Shown in pieces: positions 19,040 to 32,495 of a stretch of 34,928 nucleotides of DNA. Positions within the stretch are counted from its first letter, which is position 1. Every line of letters begins with the position of its first letter. A program made the translations under genes and the position numbers. The notes below the pieces were generated by a model. It did no database searches. It worked only from the letters and a program-made list of their open reading frames with translations, and was not told the origin of the DNA. This stretch comes from a virus: IMG/VR virus record IMGVR_UViG_3300046536_000329, positions 1 to 34,928 of that record; one strand, written 5' to 3'.

Positions 19040-21169
19040 CTACTCGGCGTCTTCGGCGGCGGGCAGATCGGCGTACCGCAGGCCCTTCGCGCCGCCGCAG
19101 CACTCCCGGATGGTGAGCTGCCGGGTGGACACCTTGAACGGCTTCAAGGCGGCACTCAGCGCGGTGGATGCTCCAGCGGCGTCCATGTCGGTCCACGGGC
19201 GGTACAGGTCGGCCCGGTACGCGGCGAGGGCCTCGACGAGCCGGTGCGAGTGGGCCGTCTCGACTCCGTCGGGCCAGATGGCGCGCAGGTGGTCGAGGAC
19301 CGTCTCGACGTCCTGCTCCTCGACCTGGGCGCCGATGGCCTGCCCGGTGAGGGTGCCGGCGGCGGTGCGGAGCGCGAGGGCGCGCTTGCCGATGTCCTCG
19401 GCCTCGGTCTGCTTGATGAACGCGGCCCGCACGGTGATGCCCTCGCGGCCGCGGGCGAGGATGCCGGTTCCCGGCTCGTCGATGCTGATGTCCGTGGCGC
19501 GCATGCCGCGGTCGTAAGCGCCAGTGCCGAGCACGTTGTTGTTGGCGCGCCAGTCCATGACGGCCAGGCACAGGCGGGTCCCGACGCTGCTGGACACGGA
19601 GGACGGCAGGGACGGGGCGTCCGGGTTCTGGGTGAGCAGGATGAGGATGAGGCCGTAGGCGCGGCCCTTCTTGATGAGCCGGGTCGCGAGGGCGGCGGCC
19701 TCGTCCTTGTAGTCGGCGTGGGTGAACAGCTCCTGCACCTCGTCGATGACGATGACGCGGGGGCCGAGCTGCTGCTCCGGATACTTCTCTGCGAGCGCCC
19801 GGGTGACGCGGCGCCCGTCGGGGACCTCGGACGCGGGCAGGCCCTTGATGAACTTGGCGCGGCGCTGGTACTCGGCGATCCCGGAGCGCATGCCGCCGAG
19901 GGCGGCCTCCAGGTCCTCGTCCTCGTCGCCTGACACATAGCGGTGACAGACGGGCTTGACGGAGTCGAGGTCGCCGGAGCCCTTGAGTTCGTAGATCCAC
20001 AGTTCGGCGGTGGGGTCGAGGGCGACGCCGAGGACGATGGCGAGCGCGCACGACGTCTTGCCGGAGCCGGGGATGCCGCCGACGAGGAGGTTGGAGTACA
20101 TGAGGGTGATCTCGATGAGGTTGCCGCGCGGGTCGAAGCCGTAGGGCAGCGGCTCGTACACGTCGGCCTGGCCGTCCTTCATGAGCGGCCACAGCTTCCG
20201 GCCGGCCTTGGCCGGGTCGCGCTGGGCGACCCACAGCACGAGACGGCCCGGGTGGGCGGTGCGGTCGACGGACGGCCACACGGTGCTGATGGGGCGTCGC
20301 ATGGCGGCGGCGAGCGCCTCCCGCTTCTCCAGGACCTCGGCGGCCTTGATGCCCGGGGGCAGGTCGACCTCGGCGCGCCAGCCGGGCCCGTCTCGCATGA
20401 CCTCGGAGGCGAACTCCGTGCCGCGGCGGCCCTTCTTGCCCTCGATGCCGATCGCGGCGAGCGCGTCGAGGACCTCGGTGGAGTCGAGGCGGCGCAGGAT
20501 GTTGGTGGCGACGTAGCGGGTGATCAGCGGCTTGCCGTCGCGCTTCTTGCCGTTGAGGCCGATGAGAGTGGTAGCGGTGAGCGTCGCGGTGAGCGTCCAG
20601 CCGGGGGCCAGGAAGCAACCGACCAGCGTGGTGATGCCGGTGGTCGTGGCGACGGCCACGGAGGTGATGCGGCGCGGGCGGACGCGGCGGGAGTGCTCGC
20701 GGGACAGCGTGAGCCAGGCCTCGATGTCCGCGGACGCGGCGGCCTTGGCCTCGACGGGCCGGGCCTCGGTGTCGGCGACCCACTTGCCCCAGCGGAGGAC
20801 CATGCGGGCGAGGCCGCGGGGCGCGCGGGTGAGCAAGCGCAGGGCGTAGACGGGCAGACGGATGGCGTGGAAGCCGGTGACGTGGCCGTAGTAGGACGCC
20901 GTCCAGCGGGCGGCGTTGACGAACTCGGCGGCGTTGCGCAGGAAGGTCGGGATGACGGGCGGGGCCTCGGCGAGGTACGCCTGCCGTTCGGCCACCCAGG
21001 TGCCGGGCAGTGCCTGTTCGGCGGGCGGGTCGACGGGGCGGAGGACGGCGTCCTGGACGACGTCGATGACCGTCTCGGTCAGGACGTCGCGGGCGTCCTC
21101 GGTGAAGCGCTGGGTGTCCGGCGCGTCCTGCGGGGCGTCCTTGTGGAGCTGGATCACGGTGTCAGTCAT
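19040..21169 (-). CDS. FtsK/SpoIIIE-type DNA translocase (Tra-like)
   Basis: This encodes 709 residues. The ATG at 21169 has only a weak, distant AGGA. Residues 1 to about 160 are soluble with helical parts. A hydrophobic stretch near 165-205 (SVAVATTTGITTLVGCFLAP, LTATLTATTLIGL) would anchor it in the membrane. The motor domain has Walker A LLVGGIPGSGKTSCALA (about 360-375), Walker B PRVIVIDEVQELF (about 470-478), and a following YGLILILLTQNPDAPSLP typical of FtsK/SpoIIIE ATPases. No FtsK gamma domain is obvious, but the C-terminal 100 residues could bind DNA. In actinomycete plasmids and integrative conjugative elements, such single FtsK-like proteins move double-stranded DNA between hyphae. 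Here it lies at the end of an operon of small membrane proteins. It could instead aid phage DNA replication or segregation. Confidence 0.88.
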   Translation of the reverse strand: MTDTVIQLHKDAPQDAPDTQRFTEDARDVLTETVIDVVQDAVLRPVDPPAEQALPGTWVAERQAYLAEAPPVIPTFLRNAAEFVNAARWTASYYGHVTGFHAIRLPVYALRLLTRAPRGLARMVLRWGKWVADTEARPVEAKAAASADIEAWLTLSREHSRRVRPRRITSVAVATTTGITTLVGCFLAPGWTLTATLTATTLIGLNGKKRDGKPLITRYVATNILRRLDSTEVLDALAAIGIEGKKGRRGTEFASEVMRDGPGWRAEVDLPPGIKAAEVLEKREALAAAMRRPISTVWPSVDRTAHPGRLVLWVAQRDPAKAGRKLWPLMKDGQADVYEPLPYGFDPRGNLIEITLMYSNLLVGGIPGSGKTSCALAIVLGVALDPTAELWIYELKGSGDLDSVKPVCHRYVSGDEDEDLEAALGGMRSGIAEYQRRAKFIKGLPASEVPDGRRVTRALAEKYPEQQLGPRVIVIDEVQELFTHADYKDEAAALATRLIKKGRAYGLILILLTQNPDAPSLPSSVSSSVGTRLCLAVMDWRANNNVLGTGAYDRGMRATDISIDEPGTGILARGREGITVRAAFIKQTEAEDIGKRALALRTAAGTLTGQAIGAQVEEQDVETVLDHLRAIWPDGVETAHSHRLVEALAAYRADLYRPWTDMDAAGASTALSAALKPFKVSTRQLTIRECCGGAKGLRYADLPAAEDAE

Positions 21170-22120: not shown

Positions 22121-22281
22121 GTGGCCCACCTCCGCAGGGTGCGGGCGAGGGACGGCCAGGCGAGGACGCCGACCAGGACGGCGAGGACGACCGGGTGCAG
22201 GACGACCGTGGTGGCCAGGCCGAGGAGCGGCGGGTAGGCGACGAGGAGGCCGAGGAAGGCTCCGAACAGGACGCGCATCAT
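22117..22281 (-). CDS. 54-residue membrane protein
   Basis: The ATG at 22281 overlaps the TGA of the upstream gene, and its own TGA overlaps the next ATG, so it is translationally coupled on both sides. Two hydrophobic helices (VLFGAFLGLLVAYPPLLGLA and VVLHPVVLAVLVGVLAWP) are followed by a basic end (LARTLRRWAT). Gene order and topology recall Spd-type spread proteins. The double overlap makes it a convincing gene despite its size. Confidence 0.7.
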   Translation of the reverse strand: MMRVLFGAFLGLLVAYPPLLGLATTVVLHPVVLAVLVGVLAWPSLARTLRRWAT

Positions 22282-23129
22282 GCGAGCACTCCTTGCCGTT
22301 CGGGGAGGGCGTCCGGGTGGAAGAGGTTGCGTCCTCGGGCGTCCTTGCTGTGGACGGTGAGGCGTCCTACGTCGACCCAGGACCGGACGGTGGACATCGC
22401 GATGTCGTACCGCTCGGCGACCTGTGCGGACGTCATGAGGGGCGGCTCGGGCGGCGGCCCGTCGTCGGCGTCCTCGGCGTCCTGGCCCGTCCCGGGCGGG
22501 AGTTCGGGCGTCCCGCCGTCGTCCTGCTGCTCCTCTCGTTCGAGGGTGACGGTGGGCGGTCCGACGGGCTCGGGCAGTGCCTCGGGCGCGGCCTCGGGGA
22601 CGCTCGGGACGGCGGCGGACGCGGGTACGTCCTCGACGTCTGGGGTGTCCTGGTGGGCGTCCGGCGGGCTGGCCGCGAGGTGCAGGAGGTGTCCGACGAC
22701 GGCGGGTGGGACGAGGCTGGTGACGGCGATCAGGACGGGCTGGTCGGCGATGACGTGCCCGGTGGTGATGAGGTGGCTGACCACCTGGGCGGCCATGGCG
22801 AGGCCGAGGGCGAGGCAGGCGCCGATGATGGCGGACCAGCGGCCCCGGTCCCCGCTGCGGCGGGTGGAGGCGACGGCGGCGGCGATGCCCGCGTAGGCGG
22901 ACAGGACGACCGGCATGCCGTAGGTGAAGGGGTCGTTCCATCCGGCGGTCTCGGCGAGGTGGTACTCGCCGGGCGCGCACATGAGGAGGGCGACGCCGAG
23001 GACGATGGGGCGTCCGCCGGCGGTGAGGCCGCGCACCCACAGCGGAGCGGAGGAGCGGGGGCCGGCGTGCGGGGTGGCCCGCTTGAACGGGCGGGCCAGC
23101 CGGGTGACGGCGCGACGGAGGCGGCTCAC
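22278..23129 (-). CDS. Multi-span membrane protein with C-terminal HTH (DUF2637/Spd-like)
   Basis: This encodes 283 residues from a GTG overlapping the upstream stop (GTGA at 23126-23129). After a basic start, four hydrophobic stretches occur between about residues 40 and 150 (GRPIVLGVALLMCAPGEYHL, YGMPVVLSAYAGIAAAVAS, WSAIIGACLALGLAMAAQVV, VLIAVTSLVPPAVVGHLLHL). This resembles the DUF2637/Spd pattern of actinomycete plasmids. A Pro/Glu/Asp-rich linker follows, then from about 232 an HTH of the MerR/excisionase kind (MTSAQVAERYDIAMSTVRSW, VDVGRLTVHSKDARGRNLFH). A membrane anchor joined to a DNA-binding head suggests tethering of element DNA to the membrane near the translocase. The family name is tentative. 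Confidence 0.65.
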   Translation of the reverse strand: MSRLRRAVTRLARPFKRATPHAGPRSSAPLWVRGLTAGGRPIVLGVALLMCAPGEYHLAETAGWNDPFTYGMPVVLSAYAGIAAAVASTRRSGDRGRWSAIIGACLALGLAMAAQVVSHLITTGHVIADQPVLIAVTSLVPPAVVGHLLHLAASPPDAHQDTPDVEDVPASAAVPSVPEAAPEALPEPVGPPTVTLEREEQQDDGGTPELPPGTGQDAEDADDGPPPEPPLMTSAQVAERYDIAMSTVRSWVDVGRLTVHSKDARGRNLFHPDALPERQGVLA

Positions 23130-23554: not shown

Positions 23555-23599
23555 AGCCGTCTCCTTGTATGTGCAGGGAGTTCGGTCAGGCCCTGCCTT

Positions 23600-25797: not shown

Positions 25798-27423
25798 TTA
25801 CGCGGCGGGGACGAGCAGGGAGTCGAGGACCGACGTCACGTGGTCGGTGTCGATCAGGTCGGCGATGTCGCCGGCGGTGGCTTGGCGGGTGACGGCGATC
25901 CCGCGGCGGCGGCACAGGCCGAGTTGCTTCGGGCTCGGCTTGCCCGAGCGCCAGCGGGCCCGGCGGTCGACGAACGCGCCCGGGCCGAGGACACGCGCCT
26001 GCTGCTCCAGCCAGGCGAGGGCCTCGCCGAGCGGGCGGGCAGTGTCCTCGCGCGGCGGCTGCACGCCAGCGTCCGACGTCCAGCGGCGCATCCGGTAGAG
26101 GCGTGAGCCCGGGTCCCGGACGAGGAACAGCGTCATCGAGTTCGAGACGCGGATGAACCACGTACCGGCGGGCGTCCGGAGCCACCTGATGGACGAGCCG
26201 CCGAACAGGTTGAACTCCTCGGCCTCGATGCGGGCTGCGATGGCGTGGCGCTTCTCGGCGGCGACGGCGTCCTCGGCGACCTCGCGCAGGCTCTTGCCGT
26301 CCTCGGCCTGGGCCAGGTCCCTCGCGGTGAGGTCGACCATGGACGCGAGCTTGTGGCGGGTCGAGGCGCCCATCACGTCGAGCAGCAGGGCGTCGCTCTT
26401 GCCGGGCGACGGGCGCAGGCCTCGGCCGACCATCTGCACGTACAGGCCAGGTGACTTGGTCGGGCGGGCGACGACGATGCACGACGTGTGCGGGGCGTCG
26501 AACCCCTCGGTGAGCACCTGGCAGTTCGTCAGCACCTGTACGTGACCCGCCTCGTAGCGGCGCAGTACGGCCCGCCGGTCCTCGCGCGGCATGTCGCCCC
26601 ACACGGGGGCCGCAGTGATCCCGGCGGCGCGCAGCGACTCGGCGGCGGCCTGCGCGGTGGCCACGGTCGGCGTGAAGACGACGCCGGGCCGGTCCGGGGC
26701 GTGCTCGACGTACGCCGCGGCGATGGCGTCCAGCGCTCCTGAGTCCTCCAGTGCCCGGCCGAGCTGCCCCTCGACGAGGTCTCCGTTCCTCGTCTTCACC
26801 TTGTCCAGGTCGAGGGTGTCGACGGTGATCCGCAGGCCGCGGACGTCGCAGAGGTAGCCGTCGCCGATCATGTCGAGGATGTCGAGGGTGAAGACGACGC
26901 TCGACCAGACCTCGGCGAGGCCGCCGTCCGTGCGGGTCATGGTCGCGGTGAAGCCTGCGACGGGAGTCCCGCGCCAGGCACCGAAGTGGGCGAGCACCTC
27001 CATGTAGGTGCGGGCCGCCGCGTGGTGGCACTCGTCGACCACGACGAGGCCGATGTCGAGGATGGCCCGGCGGCGCTTCTCTACAGCCAGGGTCTGGACG
27101 CTGGCGACGATGACGTCGGCGTCCTGGTGCTCGTCGCGTTCGGCCTTGACGATGCCGACGCGCAGGTCTGGGCGGACAGCCCGGATCTTGGCGGCGGCCT
27201 GCTCGATGAGTTCCTCGCGGTGGGCGATGACGAGGACGCGCTGACCGCGCAGCGTCACCCGCAGCCGGCTGATCAGGTTGGCGATGATCACGGTCTTGCC
27301 TGCGCCGGTCGGCAGTACGACCGCGATCCGGTTGTGCGGTCCGGCCCACCCGTCGATCAGGGCCTGGATCGCGTCGTCCTGGTACGGGCGAGGCTTGAAG
27401 GTCTCCAGTACGGCGGTGCTCAT
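25798..27423 (-). CDS. DEAD/DEAH-box (superfamily 2) helicase
   Basis: This encodes 541 residues, ATG at 27423 with GAGGTG upstream. Motifs in order: a Q-like PRPYQDDAIQALIDGW, Walker A LPTGAGKT (37-44), motif Ia VLVIAHREELIEQ, motif II VVVDECHHA (Asp130-Glu-Cys-His), motif III GFTATMTRTDGG, then in the second RecA domain QVLTEGFDAPHTSCIVVARP and motif VI QMVGRGLRPSPGK. This is the set of RadD/ResIII-like helicases. The C-terminal 150 residues may bind DNA. Its start borders the proposed origin, and the primase gene lies on the other side, so it probably opens DNA for replication; a repair or anti-host role is possible. Confidence 0.92.
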   Translation of the reverse strand: MSTAVLETFKPRPYQDDAIQALIDGWAGPHNRIAVVLPTGAGKTVIIANLISRLRVTLRGQRVLVIAHREELIEQAAAKIRAVRPDLRVGIVKAERDEHQDADVIVASVQTLAVEKRRRAILDIGLVVVDECHHAAARTYMEVLAHFGAWRGTPVAGFTATMTRTDGGLAEVWSSVVFTLDILDMIGDGYLCDVRGLRITVDTLDLDKVKTRNGDLVEGQLGRALEDSGALDAIAAAYVEHAPDRPGVVFTPTVATAQAAAESLRAAGITAAPVWGDMPREDRRAVLRRYEAGHVQVLTNCQVLTEGFDAPHTSCIVVARPTKSPGLYVQMVGRGLRPSPGKSDALLLDVMGASTRHKLASMVDLTARDLAQAEDGKSLREVAEDAVAAEKRHAIAARIEAEEFNLFGGSSIRWLRTPAGTWFIRVSNSMTLFLVRDPGSRLYRMRRWTSDAGVQPPREDTARPLGEALAWLEQQARVLGPGAFVDRRARWRSGKPSPKQLGLCRRRGIAVTRQATAGDIADLIDTDHVTSVLDSLLVPAA

Positions 27424-27426
27424 GGT

Positions 27427-27790
27427 TCACCTCGGTTCGGTTGCTGGGCTTTTGCAGGGAGTGCAGGGAGTCGGCGGGAGTCGTGCAGGGAGTCCCGCGT
27501 CAGGTAGCTGTGCCGGTGATCTGCGGTTTTGCAGGGAGGCAGGGAGTTGCAGGGAGTTAGCTATGGGCTTACGTGGTGAGAGATCCGGCGGAATCGTCGA
27601 GAGATCCACACCGCAGATGTGGTGTGCGATGCATGAGGGACGCGCGCGCTGTAAGGGGGGCGGTAGGAACTCCCCGCAACTCCCCGCCTCCCTGCGTCGG
27701 CGCAGACCAGGCCCTGTGCAGGGAGGCGGCGAGGTCCCTGCACAGGTCCCTGCCAGGTCCCTGCACTCCCTGCGTCCAGCCCGGCGGCCG
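27427..27790. other. Candidate replication origin with GCAGGGAG iteron-like repeats
   Basis: A 364-base gene-free block between primase-helicase and helicase genes. GCAGGGAG occurs as direct copies at 27454, 27463, 27485, 27531, 27539, 27549 and 27718. The opposite orientation appears on the right: CTCCCTGC at 27688 and 27766, GTCCCTGC at 27734, 27746 and 27757, and CTCCCCGC at 27670 and 27680. The middle (about 27557-27650) is less G+C-rich, has two GAGAGATCC copies (27578 and 27599) and a dyad around CCACA...TGTGG (27606-27622). Clustered short repeats beside a Prim-Pol gene are the usual look of an origin. It may also hold the helicase promoter. Confidence 0.6.
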
Positions 27791-30451
27791 TCATGACTCG
27801 TGCCGTCCTGTGCCGCGCTGCTCGTGGACCTCGACGCGCCAGACGTTCGCGCGGCGGTGCGCGTCCCAGACCTTGACCACCTTGTGCGTGCCGAAGTACC
27901 GGCCGGCACGGCTCTTCAGCCAGCCGCCCAGGACGTTCGGGGTCGGCATCTCGCCGGTCTTCGGGTGGCGCGGTACGTGGTCGGCGACCGAGCCGAGCAC
28001 GGCGCTCGTCGTCTGCGCCTGGTCGCCGAGCTTCTCCCGCCAGGACTCAAGGAACGCCGACCACTCCAGCTGCTCGTCGTCCTGGTCGATGGCCTTGTCG
28101 CGGTCGGCCATCCACCCCTCGACGCCGAGGAAGGCCAGGAGGCCGGCCACCATGGAGGCCCATTCCGAGTAGTCGCCCTTCCGGATGCGCTCGGTCGGGG
28201 CGCCAGCGGCGAGCCAGGCCCGGACCATGGTGACGAGGGCGGCCACGACCGTGGAGGCGTTGGCGCGCAGCCACGGGCGGAGGTCTCCCACGCGGAAGCC
28301 GTCGCGCTGGTCCGGGTCGGGACAGTTGGGGTCCAGGCGCACCCACATGACGCGGCGTCCGTTGTCGCCGCCGGTGCGCAGGGCGTTGCCGGTGACGATC
28401 CAGACGCGGTCGTTCGGCATGGTCACCGACGAGGTGGAGCCGAGGACGCGGTCACCCCAGTGCTCGGCGGTGAGCAGCGACGACAGGACCGGGCTCTTCA
28501 GCACGAACCCGTTGGGCAGATTGTCGAGGACGACGACCGGTTGCCCGGTCGTGTAGAGCTGGGTGGTGATGCTCTTCCGCAGCTCGGTGTCGTTCTCGGG
28601 CCAGGCGGTCTCGGAGATCCCGTACGCCGCCTTGAGGATGTCCTTCAGCAGGGACTTGCCCGAGCCCGGCGCGGTCGCCGTGAGGATCCACATGGGCGTC
28701 GGCCCATAGAAGTGCGGTCGCAGGATGGGGGTGAGCAGGGCCCCCAGGAAGTGCGCCCTGTCGGACGGCTCCTGCCAGGGGAAGTCGGCGAGCATGTCGC
28801 CGAGGAGGATCGACTTCGCGCGCTCCAGGCTCTCGCTGGTGACGTCGGGCTGAAGGCGGCGCAGCGGCACGCGCGGCTCAAGGTAGAGACCAGTCGGCCG
28901 GTCGTAGCCGGGCTCGCGCAGCAGCGTCCCGTCCGGCCGGACCACGGGCGAGGTGACGATGCCGCGCAGCCGAGGGAGCGGCCACGTGCGCCGGCCGAGG
29001 ATCGTCGAGCAGGTCTTCGGCATGAGCAGCTCGCGCTCGTGCTTCATGCCCTCGGTGAGGGGGTCGGGGCGGACCGTGTAGGTGGCGACGTGCTCGGCGA
29101 GGTAGGCCCGCAGGTTGTCGGTGCCGAGCTGCTGCATGGTCGGGTTGCCCTCGTCGTCCTTGTGGACCCACGTGGGCCCACCGGAACGGGCGTAGAGGTC
29201 CGGGAGACGGCCCTCGTTCATCAGGCCGAGGACGCCGTCGAGCGCGTCGGCCTCGTTGGTGATGTCCAGCTCGGGGGTGCTGCTGACGAGGCGCAGGCCG
29301 GGGCCGTCTCCTGCGACCTCGTCGGGCGCGTGCTCGGCGTCGAGCGCAGATGATCCGTCGCTGAAGTGCCGAGGCTGCTGCTGTGAGACGAGGTTGAGCG
29401 GGCGGGTGTCGGTGCCGAATCCGCGCCCGCGCAGCTCGGCGGCGGCGCGCTTGAAGTGCTCGGTGGTGGTGCCGCCCTGCGTCAGGTGCGCGTACGCGGC
29501 GAACTTGTCGTAGGGCGTCTCGGACTCGAACGTCGTCGAGGTGGTGAAAACGTACAACCGGTCCCGGTCTGCGGCGTGGCCGGTCGTTGCCGAGATCCCC
29601 TGGTTCTTCCCCTTGCGCCGCCAGTACGTCGTGCTGCCGCGCGTGAAGATCGGATCGAACTCGTCACCGATGATCTGCGGCCAGTCGGTGCGGGCCTCGA
29701 AGTCATCGCCGGGCCGGACAGTGCCGGCGGGAAGCTCTCGCTTCGGGCGCGGCGCTGTCTTCGCCTTTTCCTCGCGAGGCATTGCGTCGACCATCTGGCA
29801 GATGGCGTGCACCGCGTCGAGCGTGTCCGGGTCGAGGGTCGGGATGCTGCTCGGGCCGCCGGCGAGGCGGAGGTACGGGAGCCCGGATGCGTGGACCGGA
29901 CCGCCGGACGGCTCGACCAGTCCGTAGCCACCCTCGCCGCGGGTCTCGATGAGGACGCGCACGATCCGCGAATTGGGCTTCTCCGCGACGCGCTGCCGCT
30001 CCTCCGCGCTGTACTCATCCTCGCGCGCAAGGCGGCTGGCCAGCTTCTTGTTACCGGCGACGCCGTCCTCGACACGGATCCGGTAGTGCACGCCACCGGA
30101 GGGCGACTGGCTCGCCCATCCCGTGGTGATGCTCTGCCACACGTCGCCGAGGCCGGACCCTTCCATGATCTCGGTGACCTCGTCGAGAACACGGTCGCGC
30201 ACGGCGAGGCCCTCGAACTCCAGCATCTCGACGTTCCCCGAGACGCCGCCGTAGACCACGGCGATGCCCCGCGGGCGGTCGCCGCTGAACCACTGGTCGT
30301 GCTCGTCGGGAGTGCTGCGGGCGACCTTGTACGGAAGCCAGGACACGGCCGGCTTCTTGGTGCCGTCGGCCTTGATGGGCAGGACGCACAGGCCAGCGTC
30401 GTCCAACTCGCGGGCTGCCGCCCGGAGGTCCGGGGTCTGCTCGTCGGTCAA
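27791..30451 (-). CDS. Bifunctional primase-polymerase (Prim-Pol) with helicase domain
   Basis: This encodes 886 residues. The TTG at 30451 overlaps the upstream TGA (TTGA) and has GGGGAGAAG before it. Residues 8 to about 200 are an archaeo-eukaryotic primase-type Prim-Pol domain: CVLPIKADGTKKPAVSW, then VEMLEFEG (acidic residues 78 and 80), then SPSGGVHYRIR (His122). A linker with a second conserved part follows. The C-terminal half is a P-loop helicase: ILTATAPGSGKSLLKDI (about 590-605), VVVLDNLPNGF (about 640), RVWIVTGNALRTGGDNGRRV with an arginine-finger region, typical of SF3/D5-like or AAA+ replication proteins. Such fused proteins initiate replication of actinomycete phages and integrative elements. 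It is probably the element's initiator and acts at the adjacent repeats. Confidence 0.88.
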   Translation of the reverse strand: MTDEQTPDLRAAARELDDAGLCVLPIKADGTKKPAVSWLPYKVARSTPDEHDQWFSGDRPRGIAVVYGGVSGNVEMLEFEGLAVRDRVLDEVTEIMEGSGLGDVWQSITTGWASQSPSGGVHYRIRVEDGVAGNKKLASRLAREDEYSAEERQRVAEKPNSRIVRVLIETRGEGGYGLVEPSGGPVHASGLPYLRLAGGPSSIPTLDPDTLDAVHAICQMVDAMPREEKAKTAPRPKRELPAGTVRPGDDFEARTDWPQIIGDEFDPIFTRGSTTYWRRKGKNQGISATTGHAADRDRLYVFTTSTTFESETPYDKFAAYAHLTQGGTTTEHFKRAAAELRGRGFGTDTRPLNLVSQQQPRHFSDGSSALDAEHAPDEVAGDGPGLRLVSSTPELDITNEADALDGVLGLMNEGRLPDLYARSGGPTWVHKDDEGNPTMQQLGTDNLRAYLAEHVATYTVRPDPLTEGMKHERELLMPKTCSTILGRRTWPLPRLRGIVTSPVVRPDGTLLREPGYDRPTGLYLEPRVPLRRLQPDVTSESLERAKSILLGDMLADFPWQEPSDRAHFLGALLTPILRPHFYGPTPMWILTATAPGSGKSLLKDILKAAYGISETAWPENDTELRKSITTQLYTTGQPVVVLDNLPNGFVLKSPVLSSLLTAEHWGDRVLGSTSSVTMPNDRVWIVTGNALRTGGDNGRRVMWVRLDPNCPDPDQRDGFRVGDLRPWLRANASTVVAALVTMVRAWLAAGAPTERIRKGDYSEWASMVAGLLAFLGVEGWMADRDKAIDQDDEQLEWSAFLESWREKLGDQAQTTSAVLGSVADHVPRHPKTGEMPTPNVLGGWLKSRAGRYFGTHKVVKVWDAHRRANVWRVEVHEQRGTGRHES

Positions 30452-30681
30452 GGCTTCTCCCCGTAGTGGTGCCGGGCGAGGTGCTCGGTCTTGATGGCGC
30501 GGGCGAACTCCGGAACGCCGTCGCCGTAGGCCGGCCCTTCGCGGCGCTGGGGGCAGCCAGGGCGGTAGCACTCGTAGCGGGCGCGGCGGTTTTCCATGTC
30601 GACGATCAACAGGGCGTCGATCCCCTGGGGGGCGGCCGTGTGGCCCGGAACGTCCCGGGCCTGCGCGGCGGAGCCGGTCAA
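30448..30681 (-). CDS. Small zinc-finger-like protein upstream of Prim-Pol
   Basis: This encodes 77 residues. The TTG at 30681 overlaps the previous stop (TTGA), and its stop overlaps the TTG of the Prim-Pol gene the same way. It contains YECYRPGCPQRREGP (Cys38, Cys43) and EHLARHHYGEKP (His67, His71, His72), a possible C2H2 zinc site. The tight coupling to the Prim-Pol suggests a replication partner. The TTG start is inferred from the overlap; no upstream alternative was seen. Confidence 0.6.
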   Translation of the reverse strand: MTGSAAQARDVPGHTAAPQGIDALLIVDMENRRARYECYRPGCPQRREGPAYGDGVPEFARAIKTEHLARHHYGEKP

Positions 30682-31957: not shown

Positions 31958-32060
31958 TCAGCGCTCGTGATGAACGGCATCGGTGACCTGCTCGTACGTC
32001 TCTGTGAACCGTGCAAGCCCTGAACGACGCACCCCCACCTCAGTGCACAGGAGTGGCAGG

Positions 32061-32495
32061 ATGACCCCCATGGCAGACCGGGACGATACGACCCAGACCC
32101 CTGAACGGCGGACCGCTCTTGCGGATCTGATCCGGCGGCGTCGCAGCGAGCTGAATCTCGGACTGGACGCGTTCGCGGCGAGGGCTGTGGATCCCGTGAC
32201 GGGAACCGTCGTGAAGCGTGGGTGGATCTTCCGGCTGGAGACGGGGGAGCCGGTCAAGTCGCCTGAGTACGAGGACCTTTGCGCCCTCGCCGCTGCGGCC
32301 GAGCTGCCGGTCGAGGCGCTCCAGGATGCGGCGGGGAGCCAGTTTCACGGCAGGGATCCCCTGCGCTCCGGGGTCGGGTCGGCGGTGAGTGTCGCCTACG
32401 TGCGCAAGCTCGACAGGCTCCCGGAGGAGCAGCGCGCTCGGCTTCTGGCCTTCATCGACAGCATCGTTCCGCCGGAAGAAGATCAGACCGACTGA
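32061..32495 (+). CDS. XRE-type repressor, likely immunity repressor
   Basis: This encodes 144 residues. The ATG at 32061 follows AGGAG at seven bases; a second ATG at 32070 is possible. The HTH is ALADLIRRRRSELNLGLDAF with WIFRLETGEPVKSPEYEDLC, continuing LAAAAELPVEALQDAAG. The remainder includes SAVSVAYVRKLDRLPEEQRA, a helical end. It is divergent from the small XRE regulator and upstream of the integrase, as in many temperate actinophages. It lacks a LexA-type protease domain, so SOS cleavage is unlikely. Maintaining lysogeny is inferred from position. Confidence 0.78.
   Translation: MTPMADRDDTTQTPERRTALADLIRRRRSELNLGLDAFAARAVDPVTGTVVKRGWIFRLETGEPVKSPEYEDLCALAAAAELPVEALQDAAGSQFHGRDPLRSGVGSAVSVAYVRKLDRLPEEQRARLLAFIDSIVPPEEDQTD

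Follow-up and report, generated by a model that had tools for sequence, protein, structure and literature searches.

A putative replication origin with facing iterons in a Streptomyces-type phage, and its counterparts in related actinophages

What purpose is served by a short gene-free block that lies between two helicase genes of a phage and is filled with repeats facing one another? The block occurs in a 34,928-bp viral contig, referred to here in its entirety as the window, which encodes a tape measure protein, a major head protein, a large terminase, an FtsK-like protein, a DEAD-box helicase, a Prim-Pol/helicase and a tyrosine integrase. Relatives of the window occur in Streptomyces genomes, and it represents a tailed and probably temperate Streptomyces-type phage or prophage. 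A preliminary description had proposed that the block is an origin flanked by the genes of two replication enzymes; both gene assignments are confirmed by profile matches, and the proposed function gains support from the position of the block, the conservation of its words, a layout shared with related phages, and two annotated phage origins. We consider it very probable that the block is the DNA-replication origin of this phage. The reading that fits best is an origin of the SaPI/PICI kind, at which the winged helix of the initiator would read facing iterons that would load two helicase rings.

The iteron array and the candidate initiator

The array (Table 1) stands out strongly from the rest of the window. 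On its two strands together, 27431-27790 carries 12 copies of GCAGGGA, whereas 2,000 dinucleotide shuffles gave 0.16 on average and never more than 3, and an unbiased scan returns this array as the best opposed array of the whole window. The broader word GC[AG]GGGA is present 14 times in the orientation order ++++++---+----, and only 14 of 3,432 possible arrangements are as well sorted (P = 0.004). In each half, of approximately 105 bp, three words form an inner group beside the core and three or four more form an outer one; taken as inverted copies, the two halves match at 73% over 105 bases. Word spacing inside the groups is mostly 8-12 bases, or about one helical turn, and the array begins 18 bases past the stop codon of the Prim-Pol/helicase gene. 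The core is less G+C-rich than the window (62% versus 70%), as the preliminary description had noted, without being AT-rich, and its GCGCGCGCG tract and TGCATCGC element are invariant across 7 relatives.

Table 1. Coordinates of the block, its repeats and the neighboring genes in the window
Feature	Position	Strand	Details
Intergenic block, putative replication origin	27431..27790	.	360 bp, between the Prim-Pol/helicase and DEAD-box helicase genes
Outer left iterons	27454..27492	+	GCAGGGAG at 27454, 27463, 27485; degenerate GCGGGAG at 27474
Inner left iterons	27531..27556	+	GCAGGGAG at 27531, 27539, 27549
Core, putative melting site	27559..27667	.	109 bp, 62% G+C, GCGCGCGCG tract and TGCATCGC element
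Inner right iterons	27671..27695	-	TCCCCGC at 27671, 27681; TCCCTGC at 27689
Single opposite-orientation iteron inside right half	27718..27725	+	
Outer right iterons	27735..27773	-	TCCCTGC at 27735, 27747, 27758, 27767
Prim-Pol/helicase gene, putative initiator	27791..30571	-	926 aa; PF09250, phrog_19930
C-terminal winged-helix coding part, putative iteron reader	27827..28102	-	residues 824-915; coordinates from residue numbers
Wing residues 893-915	27827-27895	-	coordinates from residue numbers
DEAD-box (ResIII/Helicase_C) helicase gene, downstream of block	25798..27423	-	
HTH regulator gene	31983-32495		weak match

Several details of the preliminary description can now be refined. Its six exact GCAGGGAG copies on the left and five TCCCTGC copies on the right are present, far above shuffled expectation, to which we add the two right-hand units that read TCCCCGC (27671 and 27681); the strict left/right division of orientations that it described holds for most words but fails for the copy at 27718, which is reversed within the right half. 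The two GAGAGATCC copies that it placed in the center do exist, but are not retained in relatives. Outside the array it listed lone GCAGGGAG copies at 23573 and 32538, to which a third at 25815 must be added, and it regarded such copies as chance occurrences or secondary sites. The former explanation appears to be the right one, since GCAGGGA occurs 8 times outside the block and approximately 8 copies are expected in the whole window. Cumulative G+C skew climbs across the entire window with no turn at the block, and speaks neither for nor against an origin. A DNA similarity search of the block against phage records gave no match.

The candidate initiator is recognizable through its Prim-Pol domain, which matches PF09250 with 30.6 bits (gathering score 22.8). 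No match to the window protein was found in NCBIfam, including the P4-family primase C-terminal domain TIGR01613 (a model that the relatives L121 and L018 match above its curated cut-off), or in a sequence search of the PDB. The full-length structural model is poor (mean pLDDT 41.6), with residues 831-919 as its usable part, for which structural matches are weak (best Z 5.5). The C-terminus is predicted to form a winged helix (helices 824-848, 855-861 and 878-888; strands 896-903 and 908-915), and the weak structural matches of the helicase part include the SCCmec Cch helicase (Z 4.2) and PriRep1 (Z 3.6).

Judged from sequence, the initiator of the window phage would most likely read the iterons with its C-terminal domain. 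In the mechanism that we propose, the Prim-Pol/helicase, whose gene lies immediately upstream and runs in the same direction, would use its C-terminal winged helix to bind words of 7-9 bp spaced about one helical turn apart, and the facing arrays would position the initiators in two groups that meet head to head. The two groups could then assemble into two helicase rings, as the available passages of PMC7581432 describe for SaPI Rep; the rings would melt the core and depart in opposite directions, giving two-way forks, while the Prim-Pol domain would prime synthesis and the DEAD-box helicase may contribute a role of its own.

The same layout with other words in relatives

Loci with Prim-Pol/helicase relatives were collected from Streptomyces genomes and viral contigs; one of them, L008, belongs to a prophage of Streptomyces tendae JCM 4610. 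All 18 loci of the window's own group (the window included) have a short gene-free gap past the Prim-Pol/helicase gene that contains facing words, and in 17 of the 18 these words form the top-ranked opposed array. Six of these loci use TGCAGGGA as their iteron word and 12 use TGCGGGG. Across the four TGCAGGGA relatives, invariant columns number 96 of 98 within the words and 166 of 259 elsewhere (Fisher P = 3e-13). In one locus of the collection, the match to the window helicase is broken, within the origin-adjacent helicase gene, by an in-frame stretch of approximately 960 bases, possibly an intein (L015:13909-14867).

Over all related phages, the words found 3' of the primase-helicase gene include TGCGGGG, GTGACAC, ATGACCG, AGTACAG, GGCACAG, AGTGCCC and more. 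Arthrobacter phage RootBeer, whose Prim-Pol domain is related (43.7% over residues 60-394), has GTGACAC words facing each other around a palindromic core 3' of its Prim-Pol gene, and among its relatives in viral contigs the words are ATGACCG, GTGACCG or ATGAC[AG]C; AGTGCCC is the word of L071, and the LindNT-type mycobacteriophages use at least seven words. To assess the layout irrespective of the word, we applied a word-blind rank test, in which a locus passes if its top-ranked opposed array begins at most 600 bases 3' of the gene. The test was passed by 60 of 95 loci, many of them close relatives and thus not 95 independent cases, against about 6 expected: 17/18 for the Streptomyces group, 9/15 for the RootBeer group, 2/8 for distant contigs, 1/9 for a group at 47% identity, 5/11 for named phages and 26/34 for the LindNT type. 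One of the 60, phage BIP-1, may have passed by chance, with a weak 2+2 word 471 bases off.

The remaining 35 loci, among them L066-L070, L074, Shambre1, Vitas, AbbeyMikolon, phiAsp2 and Javan92, failed the test; some of them have visible arrays that rank lower (e.g., L039, L072, L093 and L121), and others have no array at that position. In L066-L070 and L074 another gene directly follows the primase-helicase gene, and no opposed array was found 3' of the gene in these six or in L075 (all of the same broad primase-helicase family, 47-49% to the L040 protein); their origin must have another location or another form. Two phages examined separately, BFK20 (which has Prim-Pol and helicase) and EmiRose, likewise have no array 3' of the gene, and in Mischief19 only the second-ranked word lies at that spot.

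Two features of the cores and modules were seen in subsets of loci. The cores of L018 (7880-7925), L033, L039, L040, L045, L071 and L072 contain an alternating purine-pyrimidine tract of 15-25 nt, for example TACGTGCGCGCACGCGTA, of a kind found in less than 1% of locus windows. We left this feature out of the explanation: the tract of the window itself is 10 nt long, a length reached in 5.8% of windows, compared with 0.3-0.7% for the 15-25 nt tracts of the RootBeer and L071/L072 types. In L039, L040, L043 and L045 the whole origin module is present in two tandem copies past the primase-helicase gene, and both copies have facing words and a core of the form CTACGCG...CGCGTAG.

Covariation of wing residues with the iteron word

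Close relatives among the LindNT (mycobacteriophage)-type loci differ in word, which makes it possible to ask which residues of the primase-helicase change along with it. We used 34 such loci (L093-L125 plus Nergal; L126, with an in-frame stop, was dropped), whose six word classes imply 16 changes on a tree built from residues 1-780, where 5 is the least possible. Among 341 variable columns (33 rows), the five that best track the word are 847 (score 0.62), 845 (0.57), 851 (0.42), 848 (0.38) and 844 (0.31), followed by a sixth at 0.29, the mean being 0.08. Residue 847 agrees with the first base of the word in 34 of 34 loci (N with A in 22, H with G in 8, R with T in 2 and Q with T in 2), and the third base tracks residues 845, 848 and 851, with the exception of the strict TCT class (L112 and L118), which departs from the rule that pairs T at the third base with S848. 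In independent-pairs sign tests all pairs agree (5/5 once and 4/4 three times), and with only 4 or 5 pairs on well-supported branches none of the tests reaches P = 0.05. Wing and origin are neighbors and could be exchanged together; nevertheless, closeness to the origin alone is an insufficient explanation, because columns in the tail between wing and origin track the word less well (best column 868, at 0.23 versus 0.62). In an AlphaFold2 model of the LindNT-type C-terminal part (mean pLDDT 84), the tracking residues lie on a beta hairpin, the wing, whose strands at model positions 424-427 and 430-434 correspond to residues 843-846 and 849-853.

Pairings of wing and word are also apparent in the other types. 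RootBeer-type wings reading PRG.GG or PRASGG go with GTGAC (7/7), PRSPKAK with ATGACCG (2/2), PRARTAK with GTGACCG (2/2) and PRT.T.R with ATGAC[AG]C (2/2). In the window's own group, RRAN or RRCN accompanies TGCAGGGA in 6 of 6 loci and KQ accompanies TGCGGGG in 12 of 12, a word change that is a single event and confounded with descent; in the TGCAGGGA phages, RRAN sits close to the hairpin turn of the predicted wing. The helicase profile of the window protein gave no significant alignment with that of the mycobacteriophage type (hhalign probability 1.5%), and since kinship of the helicase parts is thus unsupported, the wing rule applies to the window partly by analogy. On balance, we favor the view that actinophage primase-helicases carry a recognition code in which a few wing residues set iteron bases, including, in the mycobacteriophage types, N or H at 847 setting A or G at the first base and residues 845, 848 and 851 going with the third. 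Repeated joint switching of wing and word would then yield mutually blind replication systems in phages of one host, a process perhaps driven by satellites or superinfecting relatives, which would titrate the initiator.

Repeat arrays also serve as partition, packaging or integration sites. For the block such a role seems hardly credible: the terminase gene lies approximately 10 kb off and the integrase gene approximately 5 kb off, a PHROGs scan of the 18 larger window proteins turned up no partition gene, and both the position and the word of the array follow the primase-helicase gene.

Known origins and other readings of the block

Initiator helicases that read short words and assemble into two rings include SV40 large T, papillomavirus E1 and the alpha protein of phage P4. 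The first two read their origins with an N-terminal domain according to the available passages of PMC7581432, unlike the C-terminal reading proposed here. For SaPI Rep, in contrast, reading of the origin is attributed to the C-terminal domain, and binding is reported to involve two hexamers (available passages of PMC6092414 and PMC7581432). The pri-rep-ori arrangement of SaPIs and PICIs resembles the window in that the origin lies directly 3' of the initiator gene and two sets of iterons flank a core, an organization that PMC6092414, in the passages available, says is shared by no other known bacterial replicon; the phages described here share it. Among known structures, 7ola, the primase-helicase of SaPI5, is a match for the LindNT-type model (Z 24.4, rmsd 7.8, 381 residues). 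The window differs from SaPIs and PICIs in being a whole tailed phage (with terminase, major head protein and tape measure genes) and not a satellite, in having its Prim-Pol fused to the helicase, in a core that is G+C-rich where an AT-rich one would be expected, and in an ATPase part without established kinship to SaPI5 Rep.

Two annotated phage origins show the same arrangement. In the record of Lactobacillus phage A2, the rep_origin begins where the primase gene ends, and ACGGGA is present in it as 4 forward and 4 reverse copies around a core that is AT-rich; no array at that locus ranks higher. In Streptococcus phage Sfi21, the annotated 302-bp origin contains TAGTTAC as 2+2 copies, the best 7-letter array in 40 kb. 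Both annotations reportedly go back to experimental papers. As in the window, these origins lie directly 3' of the primase gene with facing words around a core (AT-rich in A2 and Sfi21), whereas the hosts are of low G+C content, the words are different, and the Sfi21 primase is split over two genes. This coincidence of layout with annotated origins also bears on the possibility that the block is instead an operator array, bound by a repressor or used to autoregulate the downstream helicase gene. The block does lie between two co-directional genes, where a bound protein could stop transcription of the helicase gene, and a putative HTH regulator is encoded nearer the window's end (Table 1). Yet the switching of words is tracked by the primase-helicase itself, and a scan for sigma-70-like promoters, the only type that it covers, found none; we therefore regard an operator in place of an origin as very unlikely, although autoregulation could accompany origin function.

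A parallel in protein architecture is offered by pRN1 (ORF904) and phage BIP-1, which, like the window, combine Prim-Pol, helicase and winged helix with an origin 3' of the gene (available passages of PMC4234260); the Prim-Pol part of the window weakly matches ORF904 (Z 3.8). There, however, a stem-loop is held responsible: the proposed pRN1 origin is a 100-nt stem-loop 3' of orf904, and a stem-loop origin is likewise proposed 3' of the BIP-1 replication protein (same passages), where we found no convincing opposed words (L128). The long inverted arms of the block might correspondingly act as a DNA or RNA hairpin, either as a pRN1-type origin or as an mRNA element between the genes, and the RNA form of the block has a predicted folding energy of -199.6 kcal/mol (z -10.7 versus shuffles). 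Pairing between the arms is nevertheless concentrated in the words (46 of 48 columns), the spacers pairing in 32 of 54 columns, which is not above a shuffled control (30 of 200 as high). Across six loci spacer pairing is clear only in L007 (1/200) and marginal in L011 (9/200), no Rfam family matches, a stem needs no multiple tandem copies of one word, and the tracking of the word by wing residues also argues against a hairpin, so that we give this reading very little credence.

The iteron-based origin that we prefer is of a type already known, and what appears to be new is its spread in actinophages together with the wing-to-word covariation. In the open-access literature of PMC we found no description of these actinophage origins or of a wing-to-iteron code, and the available passages of a paper on the cluster K phages (PMC3203893) describe no origin. 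The arrays offer a concrete candidate origin for a large and little-studied set of actinophages, and would extend to phages a layout called unique to PICIs in the passages of PMC6092414 cited above. The covariation may represent a natural code of origin recognition that exchanging one residue at a time could test. It hints at a way in which co-infecting phages keep their replication separate, and it could be the basis for sets of plasmid replicons, compatible with one another, in Streptomyces and mycobacteria.

Two further features of the window lie away from the block. A second opposed cluster, of AGGACG/CGTCCT (6+5, sorted by orientation, at 22163-22525), was rejected as a candidate: it falls within coding sequence rich in GAGGAC-type codons and probably reflects codon usage of acidic stretches. 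Between the terminase and replication genes, at 19040-21169, this tailed phage also encodes an FtsK/SpoIIIE-like protein (phrog_1358).
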